DNA of 64,000 bases from Streptomyces sp. T12. Its GTDB lineage: Bacteria > Actinomycetota > Actinomycetes > Streptomycetales > Streptomycetaceae. Every line of letters begins with the position of its first letter. Positions within the stretch are counted from its first letter, which is position 1. The translations under genes were made by a program, and so were the position numbers. The notes below the pieces were generated by a model. That model was not told the origin of the DNA. It ran no database searches and was given only the letters and a program-made list of their open reading frames with translations. Below, piece after piece: positions 50,505 to 64,000 of the stretch. The stretch lies in assembly GCF_028736035.1 (NCBI RefSeq), contig NZ_CP117866.1, positions 3,534,001 through 3,598,000 of the forward strand, written 5' to 3'.

Positions 50505-51278
50505 TCACGAAAGATCGAGGTCAGGAAGCAGGGCAAGGTGTTCCTCGCGGACCAGGTCGAACCTGAGGGCGAATGCGACTAAGGCCTCACGCTTTGAGTG
50601 CATACGGCCTCCGTCCACATACTTGGCCCAATGGCTGACCGGTAGCTTCTGATCGGCCAGGTAGTCGATGTGGTAATTGATACTGCTGCGGTTTGCACCT
50701 TTGAACTGATCGGTAACCCTCAACCTCTCAACCACCTCTTGAACGGAGGGCACTGCCGCCATAGATGAACCGCGCAATCGCGGCTCACAGAGCGTAACGA
50801 GAACAGCAAAGTACTTGCTCGCCGTATCCAATTTGAACATATCCGACTCGGCCACGCTAGCGGCCCGCTCAGGTCCGAGCATGACCGGCGGCGGACTGAA
50901 AACAGTGAGTTCGACTATGTCCAAACCGGACGGAATCAGAATGCGAGACATTTCAAAAGGAATTACCATACCCAATCGACGAGGGCGCGCCTTGATCAGC
51001 TCCGTACCCCCCTCTAGGTTCTCGATGACAAAAGTGGAGGACGTGGTGAAATTCGAGAGGAGGAGGTGATTGCTGGAAACCTCAAACGCGCCAATTCCTG
51101 GCACGGCTTTGGGTTGAAATACTCCGGTGCGGCTCGATATTTTGAATTCTAGCCGATCGCCGACTTTTAGATTACTACGTCCCCCCTCTGAATTCACCCC
51201 GCTAAGGTCGCGAGCATTTCCGCGCCAGGTCACGATCACTTCTACGTCGGATTCGATTTTGGTAGGCATGAACAGCAC
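50505..51278 (-). CDS. Putative regulator with FHA-like N-terminus and winged-helix-like C-terminus
   Basis: A 257-residue protein of clearly lower GC than the core genes. The N-terminal half is beta-rich (VEVIVTWRGNARDLSG, VGDRLEF, HLLLSNFTTSSTFVIENLEGG) with an FHA-like feel, although the canonical GR..S..H motifs are not intact. The C-terminal part (VPSVQEVVERLRVTDQFKG, then SSINYHIDYLADQKL) looks like a DNA-binding helix-turn-helix. Similar proteins occur beside secondary-metabolite genes in Streptomyces. I infer a cluster-linked regulator; this is not proven. A TTG/ATG ambiguity exists at the N-terminus. Confidence 0.6.
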   Translation of the reverse strand: MLFMPTKIESDVEVIVTWRGNARDLSGVNSEGGRSNLKVGDRLEFKISSRTGVFQPKAVPGIGAFEVSSNHLLLSNFTTSSTFVIENLEGGTELIKARPRRLGMVIPFEMSRILIPSGLDIVELTVFSPPPVMLGPERAASVAESDMFKLDTASKYFAVLVTLCEPRLRGSSMAAVPSVQEVVERLRVTDQFKGANRSSINYHIDYLADQKLPVSHWAKYVDGGRMHSKREALVAFALRFDLVREEHLALLPDLDLS

Positions 51279-51834: not shown

Positions 51835-53175
51835 ATGAAAATGCCTGTCCTGCCATCCGTCCTAGTACACTCTGATATGCGGGGTAAGGTGTCAACAGAC
51901 GAAAGCGCTATATCCAGCGCGGTTTTACGAGAACAGCATGGGCGTCAACTCCATGAATTCGCACGGCGACTTCGCGATGGCCATAACCGAAGTCGAGATG
52001 CACTGAGTCTGGTCCCGAGCGAAAACCGCCTTTCCCCTTTGGCGCAGTTGCCTCTGCAGCTTGATTTTCACAACCGTTACTTCTTTAATGAAGACCACGA
52101 CCCGGATTTTTGGCAATTCAGGGGCGGGGAAAGCGTCGCAGACATCGAAACGGATGTGGCGCATAGCAGCTTGAGCGCGCTGTCCGATGCGCCGTTCGTC
52201 AACCTCCGCCCGGTTTCCGGGCTCAGCGCGATGATCGTCGCGATCTCGGGCCTGGGTGGCGACCCGGGCAGCACGGTCGTCTGCATCGACCCCGCGAGCG
52301 GAGGCCACCACGCCTCCGCGGGAGTGATCGAGCGCTTTGGCTTTGTTCCTGCCACCGTCTCTGTTGAGGCAGGCGCCGTGGACATCGACGGCCTGCGGAA
52401 GATCCTTTCTTCGCAGAACGTATCCCTGCTTTACCTTGACCTGGCGAACAGCCTGCATCTGCTGGACGTTGCCGCAGTCGCCGCATGCCTCGCTGAGCAC
52501 AGCCCGCACACCTTGCTGCACATCGACGCCAGTCACACCCTCGGGCTCATTCTCGGCGGCCAGGCGCCCAACCCACTTGATCTCGGCGCAACCAGCTTCG
52601 GTGGCTCTACGCACAAGACCTTTCCCGGGCCGCACAAGGGCGTCCTGTTCACCCGGCTGCCGCATGTGAGTCGGCTCATCAAGGACGCGCAGCGTATCTT
52701 GGTAAGCAGTCACCACTTCGCCTCGACCCTTGCGCTGGGTCTGGCCGCACGCGAGTTCCAGCACTTCGGCCCAGCTTACGCGCGACAGGTCGTTGCCAAT
52801 GCCAAGCGGTTGGGTGCCGAGTTGACGGAGCGGGGCTTTGATGTTCACCGCTGCACGGACGGGTTCACCGATAACCACATGCTCTGGGTCAATGTCGGGG
52901 ACCCCGCCGCAACCAACAAGCTCGCTGGGGCCCTGGCCGAGGCTGGGATCCGGGCCAACGTCCAGACTGAGAATGAAATGCCGAACGTCTCAGGTGCTGT
53001 GTTCCGACTGGGCACCAACGAGGTGACGTTCGAAGGTGCTACCGAGACGTCCATGGCCCTAATTGCCGAGGCATTCGCGGCGGCTCGGGATGGTGCAGTC
53101 GACCGTGCTGCCAAGAACCGCTCACAGGCGCGGCAGTCGTTCGAGAGTCCCTACTTCTTCGCTGACACGGAGTAG
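51835..53175 (+). CDS. SHMT-like fold-type I PLP enzyme
   Basis: A 446-residue protein resembling serine hydroxymethyltransferase. It has LVPSENRLSP (SHMT NxxPSENxxS region), HIDASHTLGLI (PLP ring Asp) and GGSTHKTFPGPHKG with the Schiff-base lysine at about K261. The start may be ATG 51835 or a later one (51877); no strong ribosome site is seen. In natural-product clusters such proteins act as threonine/serine transaldolases or hydroxymethyltransferases that make beta-hydroxy or alpha-modified amino acids. Whether it is a true SHMT cannot be decided here. It is probably the first gene of the rightward cluster piece. Confidence 0.75.
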   Translation: MKMPVLPSVLVHSDMRGKVSTDESAISSAVLREQHGRQLHEFARRLRDGHNRSRDALSLVPSENRLSPLAQLPLQLDFHNRYFFNEDHDPDFWQFRGGESVADIETDVAHSSLSALSDAPFVNLRPVSGLSAMIVAISGLGGDPGSTVVCIDPASGGHHASAGVIERFGFVPATVSVEAGAVDIDGLRKILSSQNVSLLYLDLANSLHLLDVAAVAACLAEHSPHTLLHIDASHTLGLILGGQAPNPLDLGATSFGGSTHKTFPGPHKGVLFTRLPHVSRLIKDAQRILVSSHHFASTLALGLAAREFQHFGPAYARQVVANAKRLGAELTERGFDVHRCTDGFTDNHMLWVNVGDPAATNKLAGALAEAGIRANVQTENEMPNVSGAVFRLGTNEVTFEGATETSMALIAEAFAAARDGAVDRAAKNRSQARQSFESPYFFADTE

Positions 53176-53864: not shown

Positions 53865-53992
53865 GTCCTCATCCGAAAATGAATCACGGTGGTGGGCAGG
53901 CTGAGGTGCCCCGGGTGTTGGTCGATGGGCGACCGGCAATGGAATGGCCGATTGGGACAACCCGGACTGCGGGCGCGACCGACACGACCAGC

Positions 53993-54886
53993 ATGCAGGC
54001 CGCAATCACACTGTCCGCACCTAGCGTGGAAGAGTTCGACACACGGATCGCCGACGATTCGAGATTGGTATACGGAACAGGTCTCACTTCCTCCCTACGA
54101 ATGGGCGACACTGTGGAACCCACATCCCTCATCAAGCTCGCAACCTGGAACATAGGAGGCGGGATTCTCGGCGCATCCCATCAGCGCGGCGGAATCCCCT
54201 CGCCGGACTACTATGCTTCGGTGCTGCGGCAGCATGCGCCCGATGTGGTCTGCCTCCAGGAGGCTCACGACTACCTCGGGCGTTGCGAGAGCCAGCCGCA
54301 CTACCTGGCGCGCCGAGCGGGGTATCCGCACGTGGTGTCGTTCCCCACCAGCGCCTCGCACCTAGCAGGAGACGCCAACCTCACGCTGGCGGTCCTGTCC
54401 CGGTTCCCGCTCGGGAACGCGGTGTACAGACAATTCCCAAACCCCGGCCTGACTGGCACCGGCCCAGACGGAGAGGCATGGTCGCTGGCAGACAAGGGAT
54501 ACATGATCACAAAGGTCGACCTGGGTGGCCGTCAGGTCGGGCTGATTAACGGCCACTGCTTTCCGCTGCGGTACTTCGGCGCACGTGCCACAGACCCAGC
54601 ATTTACTGAAGTATGGGACATGCTCACACGGGACATGCTGACCCTCAAGGAGTCCGGTCCGGCCGTGGTCGCCGTCGACCTGAACCATGACCCGATCGAG
54701 GACGTGCTGAATGAGGTCCTCAGGCAAGACAGGTACATCAACGCGTTCGCGAATACCGTCACGGCCGTCAAGGGCGCCAAGCGGGACCATATCCTCTACG
54801 AGCAGGGGATGCGCCTACTGTCGGCTACTGTGACGGCCACCGAATCCGATCACGCGTACCGTCAGGTGAGCCTTTTCGTCGAATGA
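53993..54886 (+). CDS. Endonuclease/exonuclease/phosphatase-fold protein
   Basis: An EEP-fold protein of about 297 residues from ATG 53993; the exact start is uncertain, since an upstream ATG (53879) lies in transposon-derived sequence and a later one (54100) is possible. Motifs: LATWNIGGG, DVVCLQEAHDYLGR (metal-binding Glu), GLINGHCFPLRYFG, VVAVDLNHDPIEDV (catalytic Asp/Asn region) and ESDHAYRQV (final Asp-His). The fold includes DNase I, sphingomyelinases and inositol phosphatases. In this cluster it could be a phosphatase or diesterase on an intermediate, or unrelated cargo. Confidence 0.75.
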   Translation: MQAAITLSAPSVEEFDTRIADDSRLVYGTGLTSSLRMGDTVEPTSLIKLATWNIGGGILGASHQRGGIPSPDYYASVLRQHAPDVVCLQEAHDYLGRCESQPHYLARRAGYPHVVSFPTSASHLAGDANLTLAVLSRFPLGNAVYRQFPNPGLTGTGPDGEAWSLADKGYMITKVDLGGRQVGLINGHCFPLRYFGARATDPAFTEVWDMLTRDMLTLKESGPAVVAVDLNHDPIEDVLNEVLRQDRYINAFANTVTAVKGAKRDHILYEQGMRLLSATVTATESDHAYRQVSLFVE

Positions 54887-54905: not shown

Positions 54906-55435
54906 ATTGAGCTTCTTTGGCGTTGCTGCTCCGGGGCCCGGTTGGCGGCGTTCTCGGTGCGGGTGGGTTCCTGCGGGGGCCTGCGTTTGATGCCTGTGGT
55001 CACCCAGGGGCCGCCGTCCTGGCAGGCGAGGCCGACCGGGATGGGGACGCCCTGGCGCTCGTAGATGCGGATGATCTGGTGGGTGCGGGACGCGGTCGGG
55101 TCGTGAGCCCGGCCCGGCAGGGCGGGGGACAGCCGCAGCGGCCGGGCTGTTCGGATCGGTGGCCACCTCCACGTTCACTCCGTGCCGGCGGTGTGTGTGA
55201 CGAAGTCCGCATCGGGGCGGAGCTTGCAGCGCCGGTCGCCCTCGCGGGTGAGGACGGGCATCGTCACCCGCTCCACGAGCGCATGCGGCAGGTCGGGTGC
55301 GGCAGGATGGATGACCAACGAGGCCCCCGAGCAGCGTGGTTGAGACGATAGACATCTCGATCAATAGCTCGGAGGCCTCGCTCCTTGCGCTCCGGAACCC
55401 TCACCTGATCGGTGACCAACTCGAAGAAGCTCAAT
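54906..55435 (-). mobile_element. Internally deleted IS5-type element
   Basis: ATTGAGCTTCTT at 54906-54917 and its exact reverse complement at 55424-55435 are terminal inverted repeats. On the minus strand a transposase start-like piece (ALVERVTMPVLTREGDRRCK) is followed by a stop, then a C-terminal piece (THQIIRIYERQGVPIPVGLA, then CQDGGPWVTTGIKRR and TENAANRA) typical of DDE_4/IS5 transposases. The DDE core is deleted, so it cannot transpose by itself. Confidence 0.7.
54937..55061. repeat. 125-bp direct repeat, copy 1 (IS5 transposase C-terminal piece)
   Basis: Nearly identical to 59946-60070 in the same orientation, with only a few substitutions. The two copies bracket the cupin, methyltransferase and hydroxylase genes. 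Confidence 0.85.
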
Positions 55436-56121: not shown

Positions 56122-56904
56122 ATGGCACAACTTTTCGCAAAGACGCTACTGCCTGAAGTGCGCGACCACCTGGAAATGACGGGCCACCTTGGTGACGGCA
56201 CACTCTCCGAACGAGCCGGGGCGGTGGTCCGCAGCCTGGCCAGGCGCGACGAGATGCGGTCCCTGATAGATCACGTACTGTCGGACGACGTTCAACTCGC
56301 CGAGATCGCTGCGCGGTCGTATTACCACGCGAACAGCTTTCTCAAACTCGTTTTGGCGGTCGGCAGCGAGAACGCCTGGAAGCTTCGCCTCCATGTATGG
56401 CATCCGCAGTCGGAGGAGGATCGCCCGCCGAGGGAGGACATCCACTCGCATCGCTGGGACTTCACAACCGCCCTGCTGCTCGGCGAGTACAACGCCCGCG
56501 AGTACATGATCGCCCCCGGCAACGAGTACCACCACTACAAGTACACCCCAGTTCGGGCGGACCAGTTCTTCTCGCTGGAGGCCATGGGGACCAATCAGCT
56601 AGCCCAAGTATTCGAATCCAACCTTCAGGCCGGCACGGTCTACCACCTTGACCACCGCGTCCTCCACAGCATCGCGCGTTCCCACGACGGGCCTACGGCC
56701 ACGCTCGTCCTGCAAGGGCCCACCGTGCGGAATTCGACGAATGTCTATCGCACGACCCCGGTCAGCGAGGAGGGCGGAGATAGGAAGATCGAGAAGGGCG
56801 GAGGCAGGCAGATCGAGAAGGGCGGAGGCAGGGAGATCTATGTCGAACGGCCTTCCATCGACCAACTGCGCGCGGAGCTGATTCAGCTCCACGGCTGGTT
56901 GTGA
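56122..56904 (+). CDS. Cupin-fold protein, cysteine-dioxygenase-like, unknown function
   Basis: A 260-residue protein. ATG 56122 is preferred because AAAGGA lies upstream; a GTG 13 codons earlier is in frame. The N-terminal half is helical. A single cupin barrel follows with a histidine cluster (DIHSHRWDFTTALLLGEYN, then EYHHYKY and VYHLDHRVLHSIAR) that could bind iron, as in cysteine-dioxygenase-like enzymes. Near the C-terminus an 8-residue Gly/Lys repeat occurs three times. It overlaps the next cupin gene by 4 bases, so both belong to one operon with the methyltransferase. A thiol or amino acid oxygenase is possible; no direct evidence. Confidence 0.7.
   Translation: MAQLFAKTLLPEVRDHLEMTGHLGDGTLSERAGAVVRSLARRDEMRSLIDHVLSDDVQLAEIAARSYYHANSFLKLVLAVGSENAWKLRLHVWHPQSEEDRPPREDIHSHRWDFTTALLLGEYNAREYMIAPGNEYHHYKYTPVRADQFFSLEAMGTNQLAQVFESNLQAGTVYHLDHRVLHSIARSHDGPTATLVLQGPTVRNSTNVYRTTPVSEEGGDRKIEKGGGRQIEKGGGREIYVERPSIDQLRAELIQLHGWL
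56773..56844 (+). repeat. Three 24-bp tandem repeats in the cupin-fold gene
   Basis: Units at 56773, 56797 and 56821 encode variants of GGGRQIEK in frame. They sit between the cupin barrel and the C-terminal helix and look like a recent linker expansion. Confidence 0.85.
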
Positions 56905-57305
56905 CCCCGGGCCCGGTGCACAGAATCGTGACTCAATACAAATACACGGCTGAGGCTGCGGCACGCTTCAACAAGCACGGTGTCGACCTGACCGTGTACG
57001 GGCAAGCGGATCCGTCTGTGACCACCGTCCACATCAGTGTCGCGGAAGGTCACTTTCAGGAGTTCTGCAACCTTAAGAGCACCTATACGATTTACGTCAT
57101 CGGTGGCCATGGCACCTTCTACCTCAACGACGAAGCCGTGGAGGTGAACGCCACGGATCTAATTGTCGTTCCACCGGAGACACGTATTTACTATTTCGGA
57201 ACCATGGAGCTGCTGCTCACTGTCTCTCCAGCGTGGGACGAAGCGAACGAACGCCACATTAGGATTCTGGAAAAGAACCAGATTCCGAACACTCCCCGCC
57301 CCTGA
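56901..57305 (+). CDS. Small cupin protein (MarH/StnK3-type epimerase candidate)
   Basis: A 134-residue single-domain cupin starting at GTG 56901, overlapping the previous gene by 4 bases. The barrel reads TTVHISVAEGHFQEFCN, then IYVIGGHGTFYLNDEAVEV and LIVVPPETRIYYFG. The usual HxH metal pair of motif 1 is largely replaced, so metal binding is uncertain. It directly precedes an MppJ/MarI-type methyltransferase gene. In beta-methyltryptophan pathways (maremycin, streptonigrin) a small cupin inverts the beta-methyl stereocentre of the aryl-pyruvate. That role is inferred from size and context. Confidence 0.6.
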   Translation: MTPGPVHRIVTQYKYTAEAAARFNKHGVDLTVYGQADPSVTTVHISVAEGHFQEFCNLKSTYTIYVIGGHGTFYLNDEAVEVNATDLIVVPPETRIYYFGTMELLLTVSPAWDEANERHIRILEKNQIPNTPRP

Positions 57306-57416
57306 AGGCCGCCGCCCGGCCTGGATAAAGCTGAACTCAGGCAGTGGCAGAGAAGATCCTTGGGGGAACCGTAATTTTGAAAGCTCCCCCTATCCGCATG
57401 ACGGAAAGGCCGTACA

Positions 57417-58448
57417 ATGAATGCTCCTGAACGGGAAACAGGTCACGTAGCCGATCTACCACACCTGGCCGCCTCGCAGTCAGCGGCTGATCTCTTCAAC
57501 TCGGCAGTCGCGGCTTGGGCGATCGCTGCAGGATGGGAGATCGGCGCACTTGACGAGCTGAGCGGGAAAGGCAAGCTCGAGGCGCGCGACTTCGCCGAGG
57601 AGCACGACCTGCACATCCAGTCGACAAGGGGCATGTTCACCGCGCTGGCCAGCGTCGGCGTCGTCGAGCGTGAAGGCGACACCATCCTCCCCGGCCCGTT
57701 GTTCGACGACGTGTTCCGGACCAAGTCCTTCTTCCATTGGCTCTCCCGCGGCAGTGCGCCCTTGTTCACGGCGATGCCCACGGTGATGCAGAACGCCAAC
57801 CGAGTCGGCAAGTTCTACACCCGGGACGCGCCGGCGATCAGTTACGCCTGCCGGGAGATCAATGCGGAGGTCTTTGACCCTGCCTTCTGGGCGGCGATGG
57901 ACAGCCTGGATCTCCCCTTCACCAAGGTTGCCGACCTCGGATGCGGCAGCGGTGAACGACTGCGGCAGATCGCCCGGCGTCATCCCGGAGTCCAGGGGGT
58001 CGGGCTCGATATCGCGCCCGATGCGCTGGAGGCCGCCAAGGCCGCCACAGCGGAGGCTGGGCTCGGAGACCGCATATCGTTCGGTGTCGCGGACGCCCGC
58101 GCGCTCGAACCACGTCCCGAACTCGCTGACGTCGACCTCGTCACTAGCTTCATGATGGCGCACGACTTCTGGCCCCGAGAGGAGTGCATCGCCTCTTTCC
58201 GGAAGCTTCGCGAGGTGTTTCCGAACGCGCGCCGACTCCTGCTGGCGGACACCGCTCGACTGACCGATCTGCCCGACCACCGATTCCCGATGTTCAACCT
58301 GGGTTACGAAGTCGGACACGACCTCATGGGCGTTTATCTGCCGACCATGGAGGATTGGGAAGACGTCTTTCCCGAGACGGGCTGGCGACTTCTGCGGACT
58401 CACCAGGTGGACGGGTTGACAAACGGATTCATATTCGAACTCGAATAA
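57417..58448 (+). CDS. SAM methyltransferase, MppJ-like (aryl-pyruvate beta-carbon methylation)
   Basis: A 343-residue class I methyltransferase with an N-terminal winged-helix/dimerisation region and SAM motif DLGCGSGERL (residues 173-182). The sequence closely recalls MppJ of mannopeptimycin: NRVGKFYTRDAPAISYACRE, SFMMAHDFWPREEC and LGYEVGHDLMGVYLPT. MppJ is an iron-containing enzyme that methylates C3 of phenylpyruvate; two histidines here (H249, H301) match its conserved metal-site region. Start ATG 57417 has GGAAAGG upstream. A partner aminotransferase, needed to make and re-aminate the keto acid, is not seen in the window. Confidence 0.82.
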   Translation: MNAPERETGHVADLPHLAASQSAADLFNSAVAAWAIAAGWEIGALDELSGKGKLEARDFAEEHDLHIQSTRGMFTALASVGVVEREGDTILPGPLFDDVFRTKSFFHWLSRGSAPLFTAMPTVMQNANRVGKFYTRDAPAISYACREINAEVFDPAFWAAMDSLDLPFTKVADLGCGSGERLRQIARRHPGVQGVGLDIAPDALEAAKAATAEAGLGDRISFGVADARALEPRPELADVDLVTSFMMAHDFWPREECIASFRKLREVFPNARRLLLADTARLTDLPDHRFPMFNLGYEVGHDLMGVYLPTMEDWEDVFPETGWRLLRTHQVDGLTNGFIFELE

Positions 58449-58474
58449 CACCTGGACAAGGAGCTGAGAAGCAC

Positions 58475-59299
58475 GTGCAGGAACAATCAGCAGAGGCCTC
58501 CGACCCGTACTACGAGGCGCGACGTGCCGAAATAGCGGCCTTGGCGGATCGCTGTGGTCCGGACGATCCGATCCCAACGGTCGAGTACACGGAACAGGAA
58601 CACGAGGTCTGGCGGCTGGTGTGCGGAAAGCTTGCCGTACACCACCGCTCGGACGCCGCGATCGAGTACCTTGACGCGGCGGAATGCCTCGCAATCCCCC
58701 AGGAACGGGTTCCGCAGCTCCGGGATGTCAGCGGGCGTATTGAATCGCTTTCCGGCTTTCGTTTCAAGTCAGCGCCTGCGCTCGTTCCCTTCCGGCAGTT
58801 CTGCAGCGGTCTGGCAGATTCAGCCTTCCACTCCACACAGTATTTGAGGCACCCGAACACCCCCTTCTACACCGCAGATCCGGACATGTTGCACGATGTT
58901 ATCGGGCACGGGAACGCTCTGGCGAGCAAGCGGTTCGCCCGTTTGTACCGCCTGGCTGGTGAGGCTGCCGCGCGAGCCGAAAGTGAGGCGGCGTTGCAGT
59001 TCATTGCCAAGGTGTTCTGGTTCACGCTCGAGTGCGGCCTGATCCGGGAGCGGGGAGAGCTAAAGGCATACGGCGCGACGATCGTTTCCTCGTACGGAGA
59101 GCTGAACCATTTCCGTAACGCTGACATCCGCCCGCTAGAGCTGAAGAGCCTGGCCGACGTCGCATACGACATATCGACGTACCAGAAAATTCTGTTCGAA
59201 GCGGACTCGATGAACCAGCTCGAAGACATTGTGGGTAGCTTCTGGGAGACCTGCGACGACAATACTATTGAGGCTCTGCTAGCCGAATCCGTCTGTTGA
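58475..59299 (+). CDS. Pterin-dependent aromatic amino acid hydroxylase
   Basis: A 274-residue protein starting at GTG 58475 (VQEQSAEASDPYYEARRAEI). It matches the bacterial phenylalanine hydroxylase fold: YTEQEHEVWRLV, STQYLRHPNTPFYTADPDMLHDVIGH and VFWFTLECGLI. The facial triad of the non-haem iron is His140, His145 and Glu186. Housekeeping members make tyrosine from phenylalanine; cluster-borne members such as PacX make meta-tyrosine. It follows the methyltransferase by 26 bases in one operon, so it probably supplies a ring-hydroxylated precursor. Regiochemistry cannot be read from sequence. Confidence 0.88.
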   Translation: MQEQSAEASDPYYEARRAEIAALADRCGPDDPIPTVEYTEQEHEVWRLVCGKLAVHHRSDAAIEYLDAAECLAIPQERVPQLRDVSGRIESLSGFRFKSAPALVPFRQFCSGLADSAFHSTQYLRHPNTPFYTADPDMLHDVIGHGNALASKRFARLYRLAGEAAARAESEAALQFIAKVFWFTLECGLIRERGELKAYGATIVSSYGELNHFRNADIRPLELKSLADVAYDISTYQKILFEADSMNQLEDIVGSFWETCDDNTIEALLAESVC

Positions 59300-59384
59300 G
59301 ATTGAACTGGTAGGGCTGGGTTGCGGTAGCGCAGCAGGCCTATCCCGGCTGCTTTCATCGCCCTTCAGGGTCGTTGCGGCTGAT

Positions 59385-59585
59385 CTGAACGTCAACCCCG
59401 AAACGCTCCGTAGCTGGGCGCGCGTCGCCGATAGCCGCCCGGCCGGCAGCGGCGGCCAGGACGAAGAAGGCGTGCAGAGCGAGGTCGCCCGGTTGCGGGC
59501 GGAGAACGCCCGGCTCGTGAAGGCCGAGAAGGAATGGCAGCTGGAATGCGAGATCCTGCGCCGGGCGGCGCAATATTTCGCGTAG
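59385..59585 (+). pseudogene. IS3-family OrfA C-terminal fragment
   Basis: A frame reads LNVNPETLRSWARVADSRPA, then EVARLRAENARLVKAEKEWQ and LECEILRRAAQYFA before a stop, the standard IS3 OrfA ending. Its N-terminus is lost. An OrfB fragment follows in another frame, as in intact IS3 elements. Confidence 0.75.
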
Positions 59586-59639
59586 GAGATGAAGTGAAGG
59601 CCCGCCGCTGCGACTTCACTTCACCTCCGAGAAAACCGA

Positions 59640-59895
59640 GTCCTTCGGCGGTGGATCGCCGGCGCGGACGCGCGCGCCGAGCGGCAGGCCAGGGAGGACG
59701 CCCTGGTCGCCGAGATCCATGCCGAACACCGTGGGAACTACGGCGCGTTGAGCGTCCACGCCGATCTGCGGGGCTTCGGCCACACCGTCACTCGCAAGCG
59801 GGTCCCCCGGCTGATGGGCAAGAACGACATCGTCGGCCGGTATCTGCGCAAGAAGAAGCGGACCACCATCGCGGACCGTCTCGCCCCGCCTAGGA
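59640..59895 (+). pseudogene. IS3-family OrfB N-terminal fragment
   Basis: A frame reads WIAGADARAERQAREDALVA, then EIHAEHRGNYGALSVHADLR and RKRVPRLMG, typical of OrfB before the integrase core. It is cut at about 59895 by the sequence of an IS5-type fragment on the other strand. Confidence 0.7.
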
Positions 59896-59904
59896 CTTCA
59901 GGTG

Positions 59905-60515
59905 TGCGAGGCCGCGTTCGACCGGTGTCCGTGCCGTGGCCGGGGCCCGGTTGACGGTCTTCTGGGTGCGGGTGGGTTCCTGCAGGGGCCTGCATTTGAT
60001 GCCTGTGGTCACCCAGGGGCCGCCGTCCTGGCAGGCGAGGCCGGCCGGGATGGGGACGCCCTGGCGCTCGGGCTCGTCCGTCTCCGGCCCGGTCGCACTC
60101 GGCGGGGGTGCCGTCCCGCAGGACGAAGTCCGCATCGGTCTCGCGCAGAACCATGATCCGCTCGACCTTCTTGCGGTTGATCCGCCAGCCCTTCCGCCGC
60201 AGCGTGGCGGGCACGCGCGGGGCGCCGTGGGCACCCCGGGGCTCGGCGTGGACCTTCCGTATCCCGTATCGCCTCGGCGAGCTCGTCCTCGCCCGGCGAC
60301 GTCCAGGACGCGACACAGGGCAGCGACAGTGAAGCCGCCGGGGTTGTGTTCGGTGGCCTTCTCCACGTCGATGAAGCGGCAGGTCTCGCCCACTTCATCT
60401 CCTTCGCGAAGTAGGCGAGACCTCTTTTCAGGATCTCTATGGTCTGCTGCTGTTCACGGCCCCGCTTGCGCAGCTGCCGGAGTTCTTCACGCTCGACGGG
60501 TGGTCAACGCACCCG
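59905..60515 (-). pseudogene. Composite remnant: IS3 OrfA/OrfB start joined to an IS5 transposase end
   Basis: Reading leftwards from 60515: EREELRQLRKRGREQQQTIE is an OrfA ending, then MGETCRFIDVEKATEHNPGG begins OrfB in an overlapping frame. After a frame change GAHGAPRVPATLRRKGWRIN continues OrfB. From about 60070 the frame reads GVPIPAGLACQDGGPWVTTG and VNRAPATARTPVERGLAHLK, the end of an IS5-type transposase. It is a nested, dead structure at the 3' end of the leftward cluster operon. Confidence 0.65.
59946..60070. repeat. 125-bp direct repeat, copy 2
   Basis: Near-identical to 54937-55061, same orientation. Homologous recombination between the two would delete or amplify the intervening 5.0 kb with the cupin, methyltransferase and hydroxylase genes. 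Confidence 0.85.
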
Positions 60516-60570: not shown

Positions 60571-61320
60571 TCATGCAAGGGTCGTCAGACCCGCGGCGAA
60601 GGTCTCGAAGAGTTCCGGCGGCGCACTGAGGAAGCGCTGGTGCGGGCCGTTGAGGAGCACGAACTGCGTGTCCCCGCAGGCCGTCCATCCGCCCATGTGC
60701 CGATGGTCGACCTCGATGTCCTCGCTCCATCCGATCGTGGTGATCGGCGTCGCCAGCCGCTGCGGGTTCGGCATGACGTACCGCTTGTTGGCGGCGATGT
60801 CCTCTTCGAGGATGTCCAGATAGACGTCGCTGAGGTCGGGGATGGGCGTGCCGCCCATCGCGATGGTCATCTTGTCCAGCTCGTCGTTCAGCTCGGACCG
60901 GTTCATCACGAGCCATCGCCCGGTCGGTCCGTCCTGCGGTGCGACCTGCGACGAGATGAACAGGCCGCTCGGCGTCGGCCATCCGCGCCGCTCGATCTCC
61001 GCAGATACCTCATACGCCGCGAGCGCGGAACCGCAGTGGCCGAAAAAGCCGTAGGGGACGTCGAGGTAGGGCTCGACGGCGTCCGCCAGCGCCGCCGCCA
61101 TCTCCTGGTAGGTGGCGAAGATCGGCTCGTTGAACCGGTTCTCCCGGCCCGGCGGTTGCAGGCGGCAGAAGTCGATCCCCCGATAGGAATCCGGCCACTG
61201 CCGGTACATCATCGCCCCGCAGCCGGAGTAGGGGATGCAGAACAGGCGCGCCGACGCCTCGGCCAACGGCGCACGCGGAAACCACTTGTTCGGAGCCAGG
61301 CCTGCGGTGACATCGCTCAT
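60571..61320 (-). CDS. Type II thioesterase-fold protein with cysteine nucleophile (aminoacyl shuttle candidate)
   Basis: A 249-residue alpha/beta hydrolase of the type II NRPS/PKS thioesterase family. LFCIPYSGCGAMMYRQWP, LQPPGRENRFNEP and GPHQRFLSAPPELFETF (catalytic His region) are intact. The nucleophile elbow reads GFFGHCGSA, with Cys96 where the family has Ser (GHSMG). Thioesterase-like enzymes with this change, such as CmaE and SyrC, move aminoacyl groups between carrier proteins instead of hydrolysing them. Start ATG 61320 overlaps the end of the serine thioesterase gene by 4 bases. It is the last gene of the leftward operon after A-PCP, P450 and thioesterase. Confidence 0.85.
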   Translation of the reverse strand: MSDVTAGLAPNKWFPRAPLAEASARLFCIPYSGCGAMMYRQWPDSYRGIDFCRLQPPGRENRFNEPIFATYQEMAAALADAVEPYLDVPYGFFGHCGSALAAYEVSAEIERRGWPTPSGLFISSQVAPQDGPTGRWLVMNRSELNDELDKMTIAMGGTPIPDLSDVYLDILEEDIAANKRYVMPNPQRLATPITTIGWSEDIEVDHRHMGGWTACGDTQFVLLNGPHQRFLSAPPELFETFAAGLTTLA

Positions 61321-62054
61321 CGCAGGTCCTCCGAGATAGCGTCGATCACGAACCGCGTCGCATTCGCGTCGAGGAAGTGCCCGCCGTCGATGACGTTCAT
61401 GACGAACGGACCGGTGGTCTCCTTGCCCCACGGCTCCTGCTGCTGCGGTGAGGATTCTTCGTCGGCCGCACCGGCGAAGGCTGTGATCGGGATGTCGAGC
61501 AGCACGTCGGGCTGATACGTGTGCGTACTGAGCACGGTCAGGTCAGCGCGCAAGGTGGCCACGATTCCCTCCAACAGCTCAGGGTCGTCGAGGAACTGGG
61601 CCGGGGTGCCTCCCAGCGTCTTCATATACTGCACCAAGCCCTCGTCCGGGCCGTTCCAGCCGCGCACCTCGCGATCAAGGCTCGGCGCCGAGCTCGCCGA
61701 GACGTACAGCGCGCGCAGCATCGGCATCCCCCTCTCGCGCAGGGCATGTGCGAGCGACCACCCGACCCGCGCACCCATGCTCGCTCCGAACAAGGCGACG
61801 GGCCGGTCCAGCAGTGGCTCGACGGCATTGACGAGGTCGTCGACCAAGTCATCCATGGCGAGGAACGGCGGTTCGTCCATCCGGTCGGCACGGCCGGGCA
61901 GCTGCACCGCGATCGGATCGATCGACGGCGGCAGCAGCCGCGGCCACTCGCGGAACATCGCCGCGTTGCCGCCCGCGTGGTGCAGGCACAGCAGCGTGGT
62001 CGCCCCGGCTGCCGGGCTTCGAAAACGCTTGAACCAGCGATGTCCGTCGGACAT
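61317..62054 (-). CDS. Type II thioesterase (serine nucleophile)
   Basis: A 245-residue alpha/beta hydrolase starting MSDGHRWFKRFRSPAAGATT. LLCLHHAGGNAAMFREWP, VQLPGRADRMDEPPF and FGASMGARVGWSLAH (Ser92) are the classic TEII motifs; VIDGGHFLDAN supplies the histidine. Such enzymes clear mis-primed carrier proteins or release a finished amino acid from a stand-alone PCP. It lies between the P450 and the Cys-type homologue, so the pair may divide editing/release and transfer. Confidence 0.9.
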   Translation of the reverse strand: MSDGHRWFKRFRSPAAGATTLLCLHHAGGNAAMFREWPRLLPPSIDPIAVQLPGRADRMDEPPFLAMDDLVDDLVNAVEPLLDRPVALFGASMGARVGWSLAHALRERGMPMLRALYVSASSAPSLDREVRGWNGPDEGLVQYMKTLGGTPAQFLDDPELLEGIVATLRADLTVLSTHTYQPDVLLDIPITAFAGAADEESSPQQQEPWGKETTGPFVMNVIDGGHFLDANATRFVIDAISEDLR

Positions 62055-62079
62055 GGAGCTTCTTACCTTCCGGTGTTCG

Positions 62080-63345
62080 TCAGATGGGGCGTGCCGTGAT
62101 CGGCAGGTGCTTGTAACCGGACACGAACGTCGAGCGCATCCGTACCGGAGTGCCAGCGGACTCGAACCGGTGATACGAGGTCAGCAGCTCTTCGAAGAGG
62201 ATCTTCAGGGTGGCGCGGGCGAGTGTGTGACCGACGCAGTAGTGCGGGCCCATGCCGAACGAGAGGTGCCGGTTCGGCTTGCGACGCAGTTGGAACTCGT
62301 CGGGATCGGGGAACGCATCCCCGTCTCGGTTCGCCGATCCGAACCAGACGACGAGCGGGTCGCCCTCCTTGACGGTGGTGCCCCGCACCTCGACGTCCCT
62401 GGTGGCATGGCGCATGAAGTAGTTCACGGGCGCCGCGAGCCGCAAGGCCTCCTCGACCGCCGACGCGGTGACGCTGATGTCGGCGGCCCACTCGTCGAGC
62501 AGTCCGGTCCCGATCTGCTCAGCCATCACGTAGTTGGGCGAGTGCGGAGTCGTCACCGACGCGCCGAGCAGCACGCTGTAGCAGTTGGACATGACCTCGC
62601 CGGGCGCCATCGGCCGACCGTCCACCTGGGTGGTCATCAGAACACTGATGAGGTCGTCGCCGAGCTTGCGCTTCCGCTCGCGGTAGATCTCCTGGAAGTA
62701 CGCGAACAGCTCCCGGTGCGCGCCGTCCACCGTCGCCACGGCATCGCCGGAGGCGGTGTCCAGATAGTCGGGATCGTGGCCCGCGATCGAGGCGTTGAGC
62801 AGGTGGCACAGCCGCGGCCAGTCCTCCCGGGGCAGGTCCATCTGGACCCCGGCCACCGCTACGGGGAGCATGAGCATGGCCTGGGCGAAGTCGAAGGTAC
62901 CGCCGTCACCCAGCGGCGCGAACAGCTCGCGCACCAGACCCCGGATCGCCGCGTGCTGCGCCTCCAGCGACTTGGGCGTCAGCGCCTTCTGCAACCGCGC
63001 GCGCATCCCGGTGTGCCGCGGAGGGTCGGTCACCGGAATCTGACGGCCGCCCGCGGGGTCCTGGGTGCCCAGGGTGTCGAGCATCGTTCCGCGCTCGGAC
63101 GTGAACGTCTCGTGGTCGCGCAGGACCCGGTCGGCGTCCTCGTACTTGACCACGGACCAGAAGCCGCGCCGGTCGTCCACCTGCTGCCAGGTGAGCCGAT
63201 CCAGCTCGCGCAAGTGGGCCCAGGTGGCGCGGTAGTCGCCGTCGCTGAACAGCATGGGGTCGGCGACGCCGTACGCCGCCGTGTGGCTCACCGGGCACTT
63301 GCCCACCAGGCGGACGGGCGTCTCGTCGACATCGGTCATCTTCAT
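62080..63345 (-). CDS. Cytochrome P450, likely beta-hydroxylase of a PCP-bound amino acid
   Basis: A 421-residue P450 starting at ATG 63345, overlapping the NRPS stop (TGATG). The haem-binding loop is FGMGPHYCVGHTLAR with Cys370; the ExxR helix is EEALRLAAP; the I-helix region is LLGASVTTPHSPNYV. PVTDPPRHTGMRARLQKALTPK and VNYFMRHATRDVEVRG resemble the CYP163 group (NovI, P450sky, Ecm12), which hydroxylates the beta-carbon of Tyr, Trp, Phe or Leu while attached to a carrier protein. Direct coupling to an A-PCP gene end supports this. Confidence 0.88.
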   Translation of the reverse strand: MKMTDVDETPVRLVGKCPVSHTAAYGVADPMLFSDGDYRATWAHLRELDRLTWQQVDDRRGFWSVVKYEDADRVLRDHETFTSERGTMLDTLGTQDPAGGRQIPVTDPPRHTGMRARLQKALTPKSLEAQHAAIRGLVRELFAPLGDGGTFDFAQAMLMLPVAVAGVQMDLPREDWPRLCHLLNASIAGHDPDYLDTASGDAVATVDGAHRELFAYFQEIYRERKRKLGDDLISVLMTTQVDGRPMAPGEVMSNCYSVLLGASVTTPHSPNYVMAEQIGTGLLDEWAADISVTASAVEEALRLAAPVNYFMRHATRDVEVRGTTVKEGDPLVVWFGSANRDGDAFPDPDEFQLRRKPNRHLSFGMGPHYCVGHTLARATLKILFEELLTSYHRFESAGTPVRMRSTFVSGYKHLPITARPI

Positions 63346-64000
63346 CACCCTTGTCCGGCCTCGACCGCAGCACTGTCCAGCCGCCGCGAGACCTCTTCGG
63401 CCAAAGCCTCGATCGTGGGATTCAGGAACAAAGTACGGGCGGACATGGCCACCTTGAACCGACTCTCCAGCGCGGCCAACAGCTCGGCCGCGAGCAGCGA
63501 ATGCCCGCCCAGCTCGAAGAAGTCGTCGGTGATGCCGATCGGCTCGATCTCCAGGGCGTCGCTCCAGACCTCCGCCAGCTGCCGCTGGAGATCGGTGGAG
63601 GGCTCGACGTATTCATTCCAGACGTTGCGCGGCATCTTGGCCGCGGGCAGGGCCGAGCGATCGACCTTGCCATTCGGGTTCAGCGGGATGTCCTCGACCG
63701 GGAAGATCCCCCACGGGACGAGGTGCGCGGGCAATGTCTTGTGCAGGTAGTCGCGCAACTCGTTGCCCAGGGTGGTCGCTTCGTCCGCCAGGAGCTCGCC
63801 GACGGCGACGGTGGCGATGAGCCGGGCGTCGCCTGCGCCGTCGGTGTGGGCGAGCACCACGGCCCGCTGCACCTTCGGATGGGACATCAGTTCCATCTCC
63901 ACCGTGCTCGGCTCGACGCGGTAGCCGCGGATCTTGAGCTGCCGGTCGGCACGGCCCAGGAAGTCGAGGTCGCCGGAGTCGGTGGCGACCACGAGATCGC
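63345..64000 (-). CDS. NRPS adenylation-PCP protein, C-terminal part (cut by window edge)
   Basis: About 218 codons are visible. They hold the end of an adenylation domain (A7/A8 region SGDLDFLGRADRQLKIRGYR, then VEPSTVEMEL; A10 NPNGKVDRSAL) and one carrier domain with DDFFELGGHSLLAAEL, whose Ser is the phosphopantetheine site. The stop follows directly after the carrier, with no condensation or thioesterase domain, the layout of stand-alone A-PCP loaders such as NovH. The specificity-code residues lie outside the window, so the amino acid activated is unknown. Confidence 0.92.
   Translation of the reverse strand, partial: DLVVATDSGDLDFLGRADRQLKIRGYRVEPSTVEMELMSHPKVQRAVVLAHTDGAGDARLIATVAVGELLADEATTLGNELRDYLHKTLPAHLVPWGIFPVEDIPLNPNGKVDRSALPAAKMPRNVWNEYVEPSTDLQRQLAEVWSDALEIEPIGITDDFFELGGHSLLAAELLAALESRFKVAMSARTLFLNPTIEALAEEVSRRLDSAAVEAGQG

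Follow-up and report, generated by a model that had tools for sequence, protein, structure and literature searches.

A cupin, methyltransferase, and phenylalanine hydroxylase operon of Streptomyces sp. T12 in a probable peptidyl-nucleoside antibiotic cluster

The genome of Streptomyces sp. T12 (11.46 Mb) contains a four-gene operon that encodes two cupins, a methyltransferase, and a pterin-dependent aromatic hydroxylase. It lies in a stretch of 64,000 nucleotides of contig NZ_CP117866.1 (positions 3,534,001 to 3,598,000), referred to here as the window, in whose coordinates all positions are given. A first-pass annotation made from the letters alone had described these genes in tight order, and we confirm all four open reading frames, on the plus strand and in the order and place first described: cupin 1, cupin 2, methyltransferase, and hydroxylase, with intergenic gaps of 23, 111, and 26 bp (Table 1). 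The start of cupin 1 is the equivalent of the Met at which its closest homologues begin. That of cupin 2 is probable because many relatives are 121–125 amino acids long. The four-gene order recurs in two other genomes with 73–93% identity; given this recurrence and the strong matches of the methyltransferase, cupin 2, and the hydroxylase, we do not attribute the matches to chance.

The operon is part of a larger conserved set. All 24 window-cluster genes recur in Streptomyces ferrugineus (G009), and 20 of the 24 occur at 60% identity or more in the 35.5 kb examined of Micromonospora sp. ALFpr18c. We refer to these as window-type clusters. A search for such clusters in 130 relatives and 160 Micromonospora-group genomes matched only G000, G009, and G001 itself.

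The methyltransferase has its best match in the PDB to MppJ (4kib, 419 bits, residues 14–343), and the next family scores 73 bits. The first-pass annotation had called the gene MppJ-like and named grouping with O-methyltransferases as the outcome that would speak against this; on these scores the O-methyltransferase assignment was rejected. The residues aligned to MppJ H243, D244, and H295, which we take to be the iron site, are retained. MppJ-like genes with at least 39% identity occur in at least 28 of 392 Streptomyces genomes (up to five candidates scored per genome); the window genome and G009 are the only ones in which the position of such a gene places it beside a hydroxylase match. There are 29 MppJ-like loci at this identity that are not of the window type; the 27 that were fetched (all except G339:C1194 and G321:C236) have no hydroxylase match. 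Two plasmid loci with MppJ-like genes have no match to cupin 2 or the hydroxylase. A by-eye scan for MarH-like cupins around the 27 loci listed seven small open reading frames, two of them with an H-x-H motif.

The window genome has no PF00351 match other than the hydroxylase, and PF00351-type matches (E ≤ 0.001; up to six candidates scored per genome, as for cupin 1) were found in 35 of the 392 Streptomyces genomes, with none in the other 357. According to one study (PMC7027792), Cys187 and Thr202, in place of Phe and Gly, distinguish phenylalanine (Phe) 3-hydroxylases from Phe 4-hydroxylases. Both are present in the window enzyme, as its own residues 187 and 202 in a numbering that equals that of PacX, and by this signature it is a Phe meta-hydroxylase. 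In the 20 of 39 Streptomyces matches examined, Cys is found in four and Thr in three, and the two occur together only in the window and G009 enzymes. The Micromonospora hydroxylase has both, and the enzymes of two related Pac13 clusters (described below) have Cys and Ser. In a tree of 21 rows, which did not include PacX, the three enzymes with Cys and Thr group as a single clade (support 100/100) within a supported nine-row group that also holds the two Pac13-cluster hydroxylases and four others. The enzyme is thus the sole member of its family in the genome, as a housekeeping PhhA might be, but its signature, its biosynthetic-cluster setting, and how seldom the family occurs across Streptomyces led us to reject that role, which the first-pass annotation had raised as a possible objection.

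Cupin 2 is identical to Pac13 at 74 of 120 residues (62%) and matches PDB chain 5oo9 with E 6e-51. Pac13, the basis for our residue comparison, is the 3′-deoxyuridine dehydratase of pacidamycin biosynthesis and acts on uridine-5′-aldehyde (PMC5656905). Cupin 2 keeps K16, the catalytic His42, Y89, and E108, with Ile in place of Y55 and Trp in place of F103. The latter change is not peculiar to the window lineage (Trp in 22 of 120 relatives). Position 55 is Tyr in 117 of the 120, the exceptions being the window protein, P0002, and the Micromonospora protein; the cupin 2 of G009 also has Ile there. Cupin 2 is the sole Pac13-family match in the window genome. Matches occur in six of the 392 Streptomyces genomes, of which five (six loci) are close and one (G294, 32%) is weak. 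Cupin 2 is a Pac13 relative and, judging from these residues and matches, most likely a nucleoside gene rather than a MarH-type epimerase; a MarH-like role is unlikely.

Cupin 1 is 52% identical to P0139 (named pac7, from S. coeruleorubidus) and 50% identical to P0153 (named npsS), which belong to the pacidamycin and napsamycin clusters and are uncharacterised. Cupin 1 has no match in Pfam or by PDB sequence search, and its assignment to the cupin fold rests on an AlphaFold model (mean pLDDT 83), to which the closest folds are thiol/cysteine dioxygenases and other cupins. H108, H110, and H182 are invariant across 40 aligned sequences. Near the C-terminus there is an in-frame repeated insertion of EKGGGR units (window ~56772–56838), modeled with low confidence; a similar insertion is present in P0121 and P0122 and absent from most other homologues. 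Matches at E ≤ 0.001 occur in 86 of the 392 genomes, with close homologues (51% or more) in only five genomes, at six loci. These are exactly the five genomes, and all six of the loci, that have close cupin 2 homologues, and a nucleoside step is the likely role of cupin 1.

To the left of the operon are an endonuclease/exonuclease/phosphatase (EEP)-family enzyme and a serine-hydroxymethyltransferase-like enzyme. The latter is 51–56% identical to P0214, P0217, and P0229, which are named L-threonine:uridine-5′-aldehyde transaldolases, and to P0269 of the muraymycin producer NRRL 30471, and has in common with its relatives the motif GSTHK(T/S)FPGP. Mur17 makes 5′-C-glycyluridine (PMC9814697). The EEP enzyme is conserved in Pac13-bearing clusters, with 55% identity to the copies in Streptomyces sp. 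13-12-16 and G236:C24. The protein at 50505 may possibly be a SsaA/PacA-type regulator, a guess made by eye.

To the right, the minus strand encodes two thioesterases, a cytochrome P450, a MbtH-A-PCP protein, an Aminotran_4 protein, and a PCP, and later C, C, A-PCP, PCP, and A-PCP-C proteins of a nonribosomal peptide synthetase (NRPS). A B12-radical SAM enzyme lies on the plus strand between the PCP and the first C protein, and a plus-strand MFS transporter follows A-PCP-C. The genes for the P450, MbtH-A-PCP, the class IV aminotransferase, and the two thioesterases are conserved as a block of their own (window 60571–64000 and beyond), which perhaps hydroxylates a carrier-bound, valine-like residue, going by an A1 code read by eye. 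This block is collinear with the four-gene operon in Micromonospora; in the window and G009 the two face each other. The B12-binding radical SAM, DUF364, and tRNA-binding-domain proteins are grouped on the plus strand (window-equivalent 67901–71908); this trio is present in G009 at 62–73%, and the examined Micromonospora stretch is without it and one transporter. Pfam did not recognize the tRNA-dependent aminoacyl transferase PacB in the cluster, where the proteins h84145 and h77298 have no Pfam match. Two insertion sequence (IS) remnant copies in the same orientation flank the operon, and the GC content is 0.62–0.64 at 48–60 kb compared with 0.67–0.74 in the flanks examined (36–48 and 88–100 kb).

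Table 1. Operon genes and neighboring features, in window coordinates.
Feature	Position	Strand	Remarks
Cupin 1, Pac7/NpsS-family, cysteine-dioxygenase-like cupin by model	56122..56904	+	260 aa, refined start
Cupin 2, relative of the Pac13-family uridine-5′-aldehyde 3′-dehydratase	56928..57305	+	125 aa, probable start; start given by the open reading frame tool, 56901
MppJ-type aryl-pyruvate beta-C-methyltransferase (predicted)	57417..58448	+	MppJ 4kib match, E 1e-124
Pterin-dependent phenylalanine 3-hydroxylase, PacX-like (by signature)	58475..59299	+	PF00351, 189 bits; Cys187 and Thr202
Conserved cluster protein	50505..51278	-	68–70% to proteins of two Pac13-bearing clusters; no Pfam match
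Transaldolase-like (serine-hydroxymethyltransferase-like) enzyme	51835..53175	+	51–56% to named transaldolases; homologues suggest start near 51889
EEP-family enzyme	53879..54886	+	PF03372; start uncertain
IS remnant copy 1	54931..55061		131 bp, 95% identical to copy 2
IS remnant copy 2	59940..60070		131 bp; amid transposase-like fragments (~59302–60400), with a HTH_21 match there
Type II thioesterase	60571..61431	-	PF00975; also in G009 and Micromonospora clusters
Type II thioesterase	61317..62054	-	PF00975; also in G009 and Micromonospora clusters
Cytochrome P450	62080..63348	-	PF00067; 95% in G009, 91% in Micromonospora
MbtH-A-PCP NRPS protein, end	63345..64000	-	runs on to ~65597 beyond the window

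Three related Pac13 loci (Streptomyces sp. 13-12-16, G236:C24, and G389) are of a different type. Their cupin 2 is 74–80% identical to Pac13 and keeps K16, H42, Y55, Y89, F103, and E108, and they carry Aminotran_3 and TauD genes where the window-type clusters carry the transaldolase. Between them they share with the window the EEP enzyme, the 50505 protein, and C and PCP proteins, with the hydroxylase in two of the three. Their Aminotran_3 has no match in the window-type clusters, and its best matches in the window genome (37–39%) lie elsewhere. We guess that their TauD may supply uridine-5′-aldehyde instead of PacK. A small contig, G236:C78, has cupin 1, cupin 2, the EEP enzyme, and the transaldolase in a row. 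The G236 genome therefore holds two different Pac13/Pac7 loci, C24 with Aminotran_3 and C78 with the transaldolase.

From this gene content, we consider that the operon is probably part of a peptidyl-nucleoside antibiotic cluster, a hybrid of the uridyl-peptide and glycyl-uridine kinds. The cupins, the EEP enzyme, and the transaldolase appear to form a nucleoside module, and the methyltransferase and hydroxylase an amino acid module. There is about an even chance that the clusters form one family for a new MraY-type antibiotic class, in which a Pac13-type dehydratase and a LipK-type transaldolase share uridine-5′-aldehyde to give 3′-deoxy-5′-C-glycyluridine, joined to a peptide with beta-methyl-m-tyrosine.

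Family membership, diagnostic residues, and conserved gene sets are read from the sequences, and from them we infer the reactions and the product. Cupin 2 would dehydrate uridine-5′-aldehyde at C3′, and would do so before C-C bond formation because the E1cB step requires the free aldehyde. The transaldolase-like enzyme would add a threonine-derived glycyl unit to form 3′-deoxy-3′,4′-didehydro-5′-C-glycyluridine, and cupin 1 would perform a further nucleoside step, possibly as a metal-dependent oxygenase. For the amino acid, the hydroxylase may convert Phe to m-tyrosine and the MppJ-type enzyme may methylate the beta-carbon of the aryl-pyruvate, with an aminotransferase (perhaps the cluster's class IV enzyme) interconverting keto and amino acid to give beta-methyl-m-tyrosine. 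The dissociated NRPS would join the nucleoside and amino acid parts.

Several observations weigh against this pathway. Tyr55, which aids stabilization of the 5′-oxyanion in Pac13, is lost in the cupin 2 lineage, so the substrate may differ, and the transaldolase-like enzyme could use another aldehyde. The codes of the A domains (A1 DVFWLAGTYK, A2 DIQFAAHVAK, A3 DAFFAAGCIK), taken by eye from sequence motifs, name no aromatic substrate, including m-tyrosine, and are neutral to negative for the pathway; the A1 code is presumably valine-like. No enzyme that makes uridine-5′-aldehyde was found, with no PacK-like flavin oxidase among the Pfam-scanned cluster genes, and Pfam recognized no 2,3-diaminobutyrate genes in the cluster. 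The TauD of the related clusters, used as the query for a UMP dioxygenase of the LipL/Cpz15 type and distinct from LipL itself, is unmatched in the window-type clusters and, in a search run without a positive control, in the genome. Distant cupin 1 relatives (mostly 28–37%) occur in 81 further genomes without a close Pac13 homologue, so the wider cupin 1 family is not tied to nucleosides.

The first-pass annotation had proposed that all four genes build one beta-methylated, ring-hydroxylated amino acid. Its methyltransferase type stands, and the meta-hydroxylase signature makes its suggestion of beta-methyl-meta-tyrosine a sensible guess, but our results do not support the placing of the cupins in the amino acid pathway. 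The annotation also did not mention the probable peptidyl-nucleoside setting. For cupin 2 to flip the beta-stereocenter as MarH/StnK3 do is improbable, even though position 55 is Ile or Leu in 3/3 methyltransferase-bearing loci and Tyr in 4/4 loci without a methyltransferase, and the cupin-methyltransferase order resembles the methyltransferase-cupin-aminotransferase cassette of streptonigrin (PMC4742848). That link compares three loci of one lineage with four, and the contexts of P0002, P0003, and P0008 lie outside it; the loss of Tyr55 could reflect a changed cupin 2 substrate. Cupin 2, the only Pac13-type protein of its genome, keeps the ribose-binding K16 and E108 and the base His42. A Pac13-family cupin is found at 0 of the 27 other MppJ-like loci examined, while close relatives of Pac7 and Pac13 are encoded together at 6/6 loci. 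The row of cupin 1, cupin 2, EEP, and transaldolase genes in G236 is in a genome where no MppJ-like gene was found (best E 8e-6; five of 51 candidates scored).

Within a peptidyl-nucleoside cluster, the building block is most likely beta-methyl-m-tyrosine, and separate beta-methyl-Phe and m-Tyr are possible. The latter arrangement, with two separate residues and no beta-methyl-m-tyrosine, is on the whole somewhat doubtful. In its favor, PacX-type enzymes use free Phe (PMC7027792). MppJ acts on phenylpyruvate. Each of the two enzymes can work alone, and several A domains are present in the NRPS. However, the methyltransferase adjoins the hydroxylase within one operon in 3/3 window-type clusters, which suggests action on one building block. 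We regard it as unlikely that the cluster makes an ordinary uridyl-peptide antibiotic of the pacidamycin/napsamycin type with one added methyl, the transaldolase-like gene serving a beta-hydroxy amino acid. The Pac7, Pac13, and Phe 3-hydroxylase relatives and the dissociated NRPS would fit such a product. However, the named relatives of the transaldolase are of the nucleoside type, in G236 its gene is in a row with those of the cupins and the EEP enzyme, and the Aminotran_3 of the three related Pac13 clusters is missing from window-type clusters. Because this feature was looked for and had no match, we do not class the cluster as a uridyl-peptide member.

In 3′-hydroxymureidomycin A, the m-tyrosine touches MraY within the pocket next to the uridine site (PMC6606608), so a beta-methyl group at this place, as in the hybrid that we favor, would bear on binding. 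The cluster opens the uncharacterised Pac7 family to functional tests, and individually purified enzymes would suffice to test each proposed step. The cluster probably combines two known kinds: in the open-access literature searched, we found no description of the predicted hybrid core, of a transaldolase in pacidamycin-type biosynthesis, or of beta-methyl-m-tyrosine in this sense.

The MarH/StnK3 cassettes for beta-methyltryptophan also encode a small cupin close to an aryl-pyruvate C-methyltransferase (PMC4742848). They probably differ in that the small cupin of the window is a Pac13 relative. The methyltransferase is like mannopeptimycin MppJ in its sequence and in H243/D244/H295, and differs in cluster context, with a Phe 3-hydroxylase adjoining it here. 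In contrast to the muraymycin and caprazamycin clusters, which form 5′-C-glycyluridine, the window cluster has a Pac13-type 3′-dehydratase, and no TauD-type gene was found with the queries used. It resembles pacidamycin, napsamycin, and sansanmycin clusters in its Pac13-type dehydratase, Pac7/NpsS-family cupin, Phe 3-hydroxylase signature, and free-standing C and PCP proteins. Compared with these, it is without an Aminotran_3 of the kind that the three related Pac13 clusters carry, which we take as PacE-like, and adds the transaldolase, the MppJ-type methyltransferase, the P450, MbtH-A-PCP, and the type II thioesterases. A cluster with the key nucleoside enzymes of both the uridyl-peptide and the glycyl-uridine kinds would link the two.

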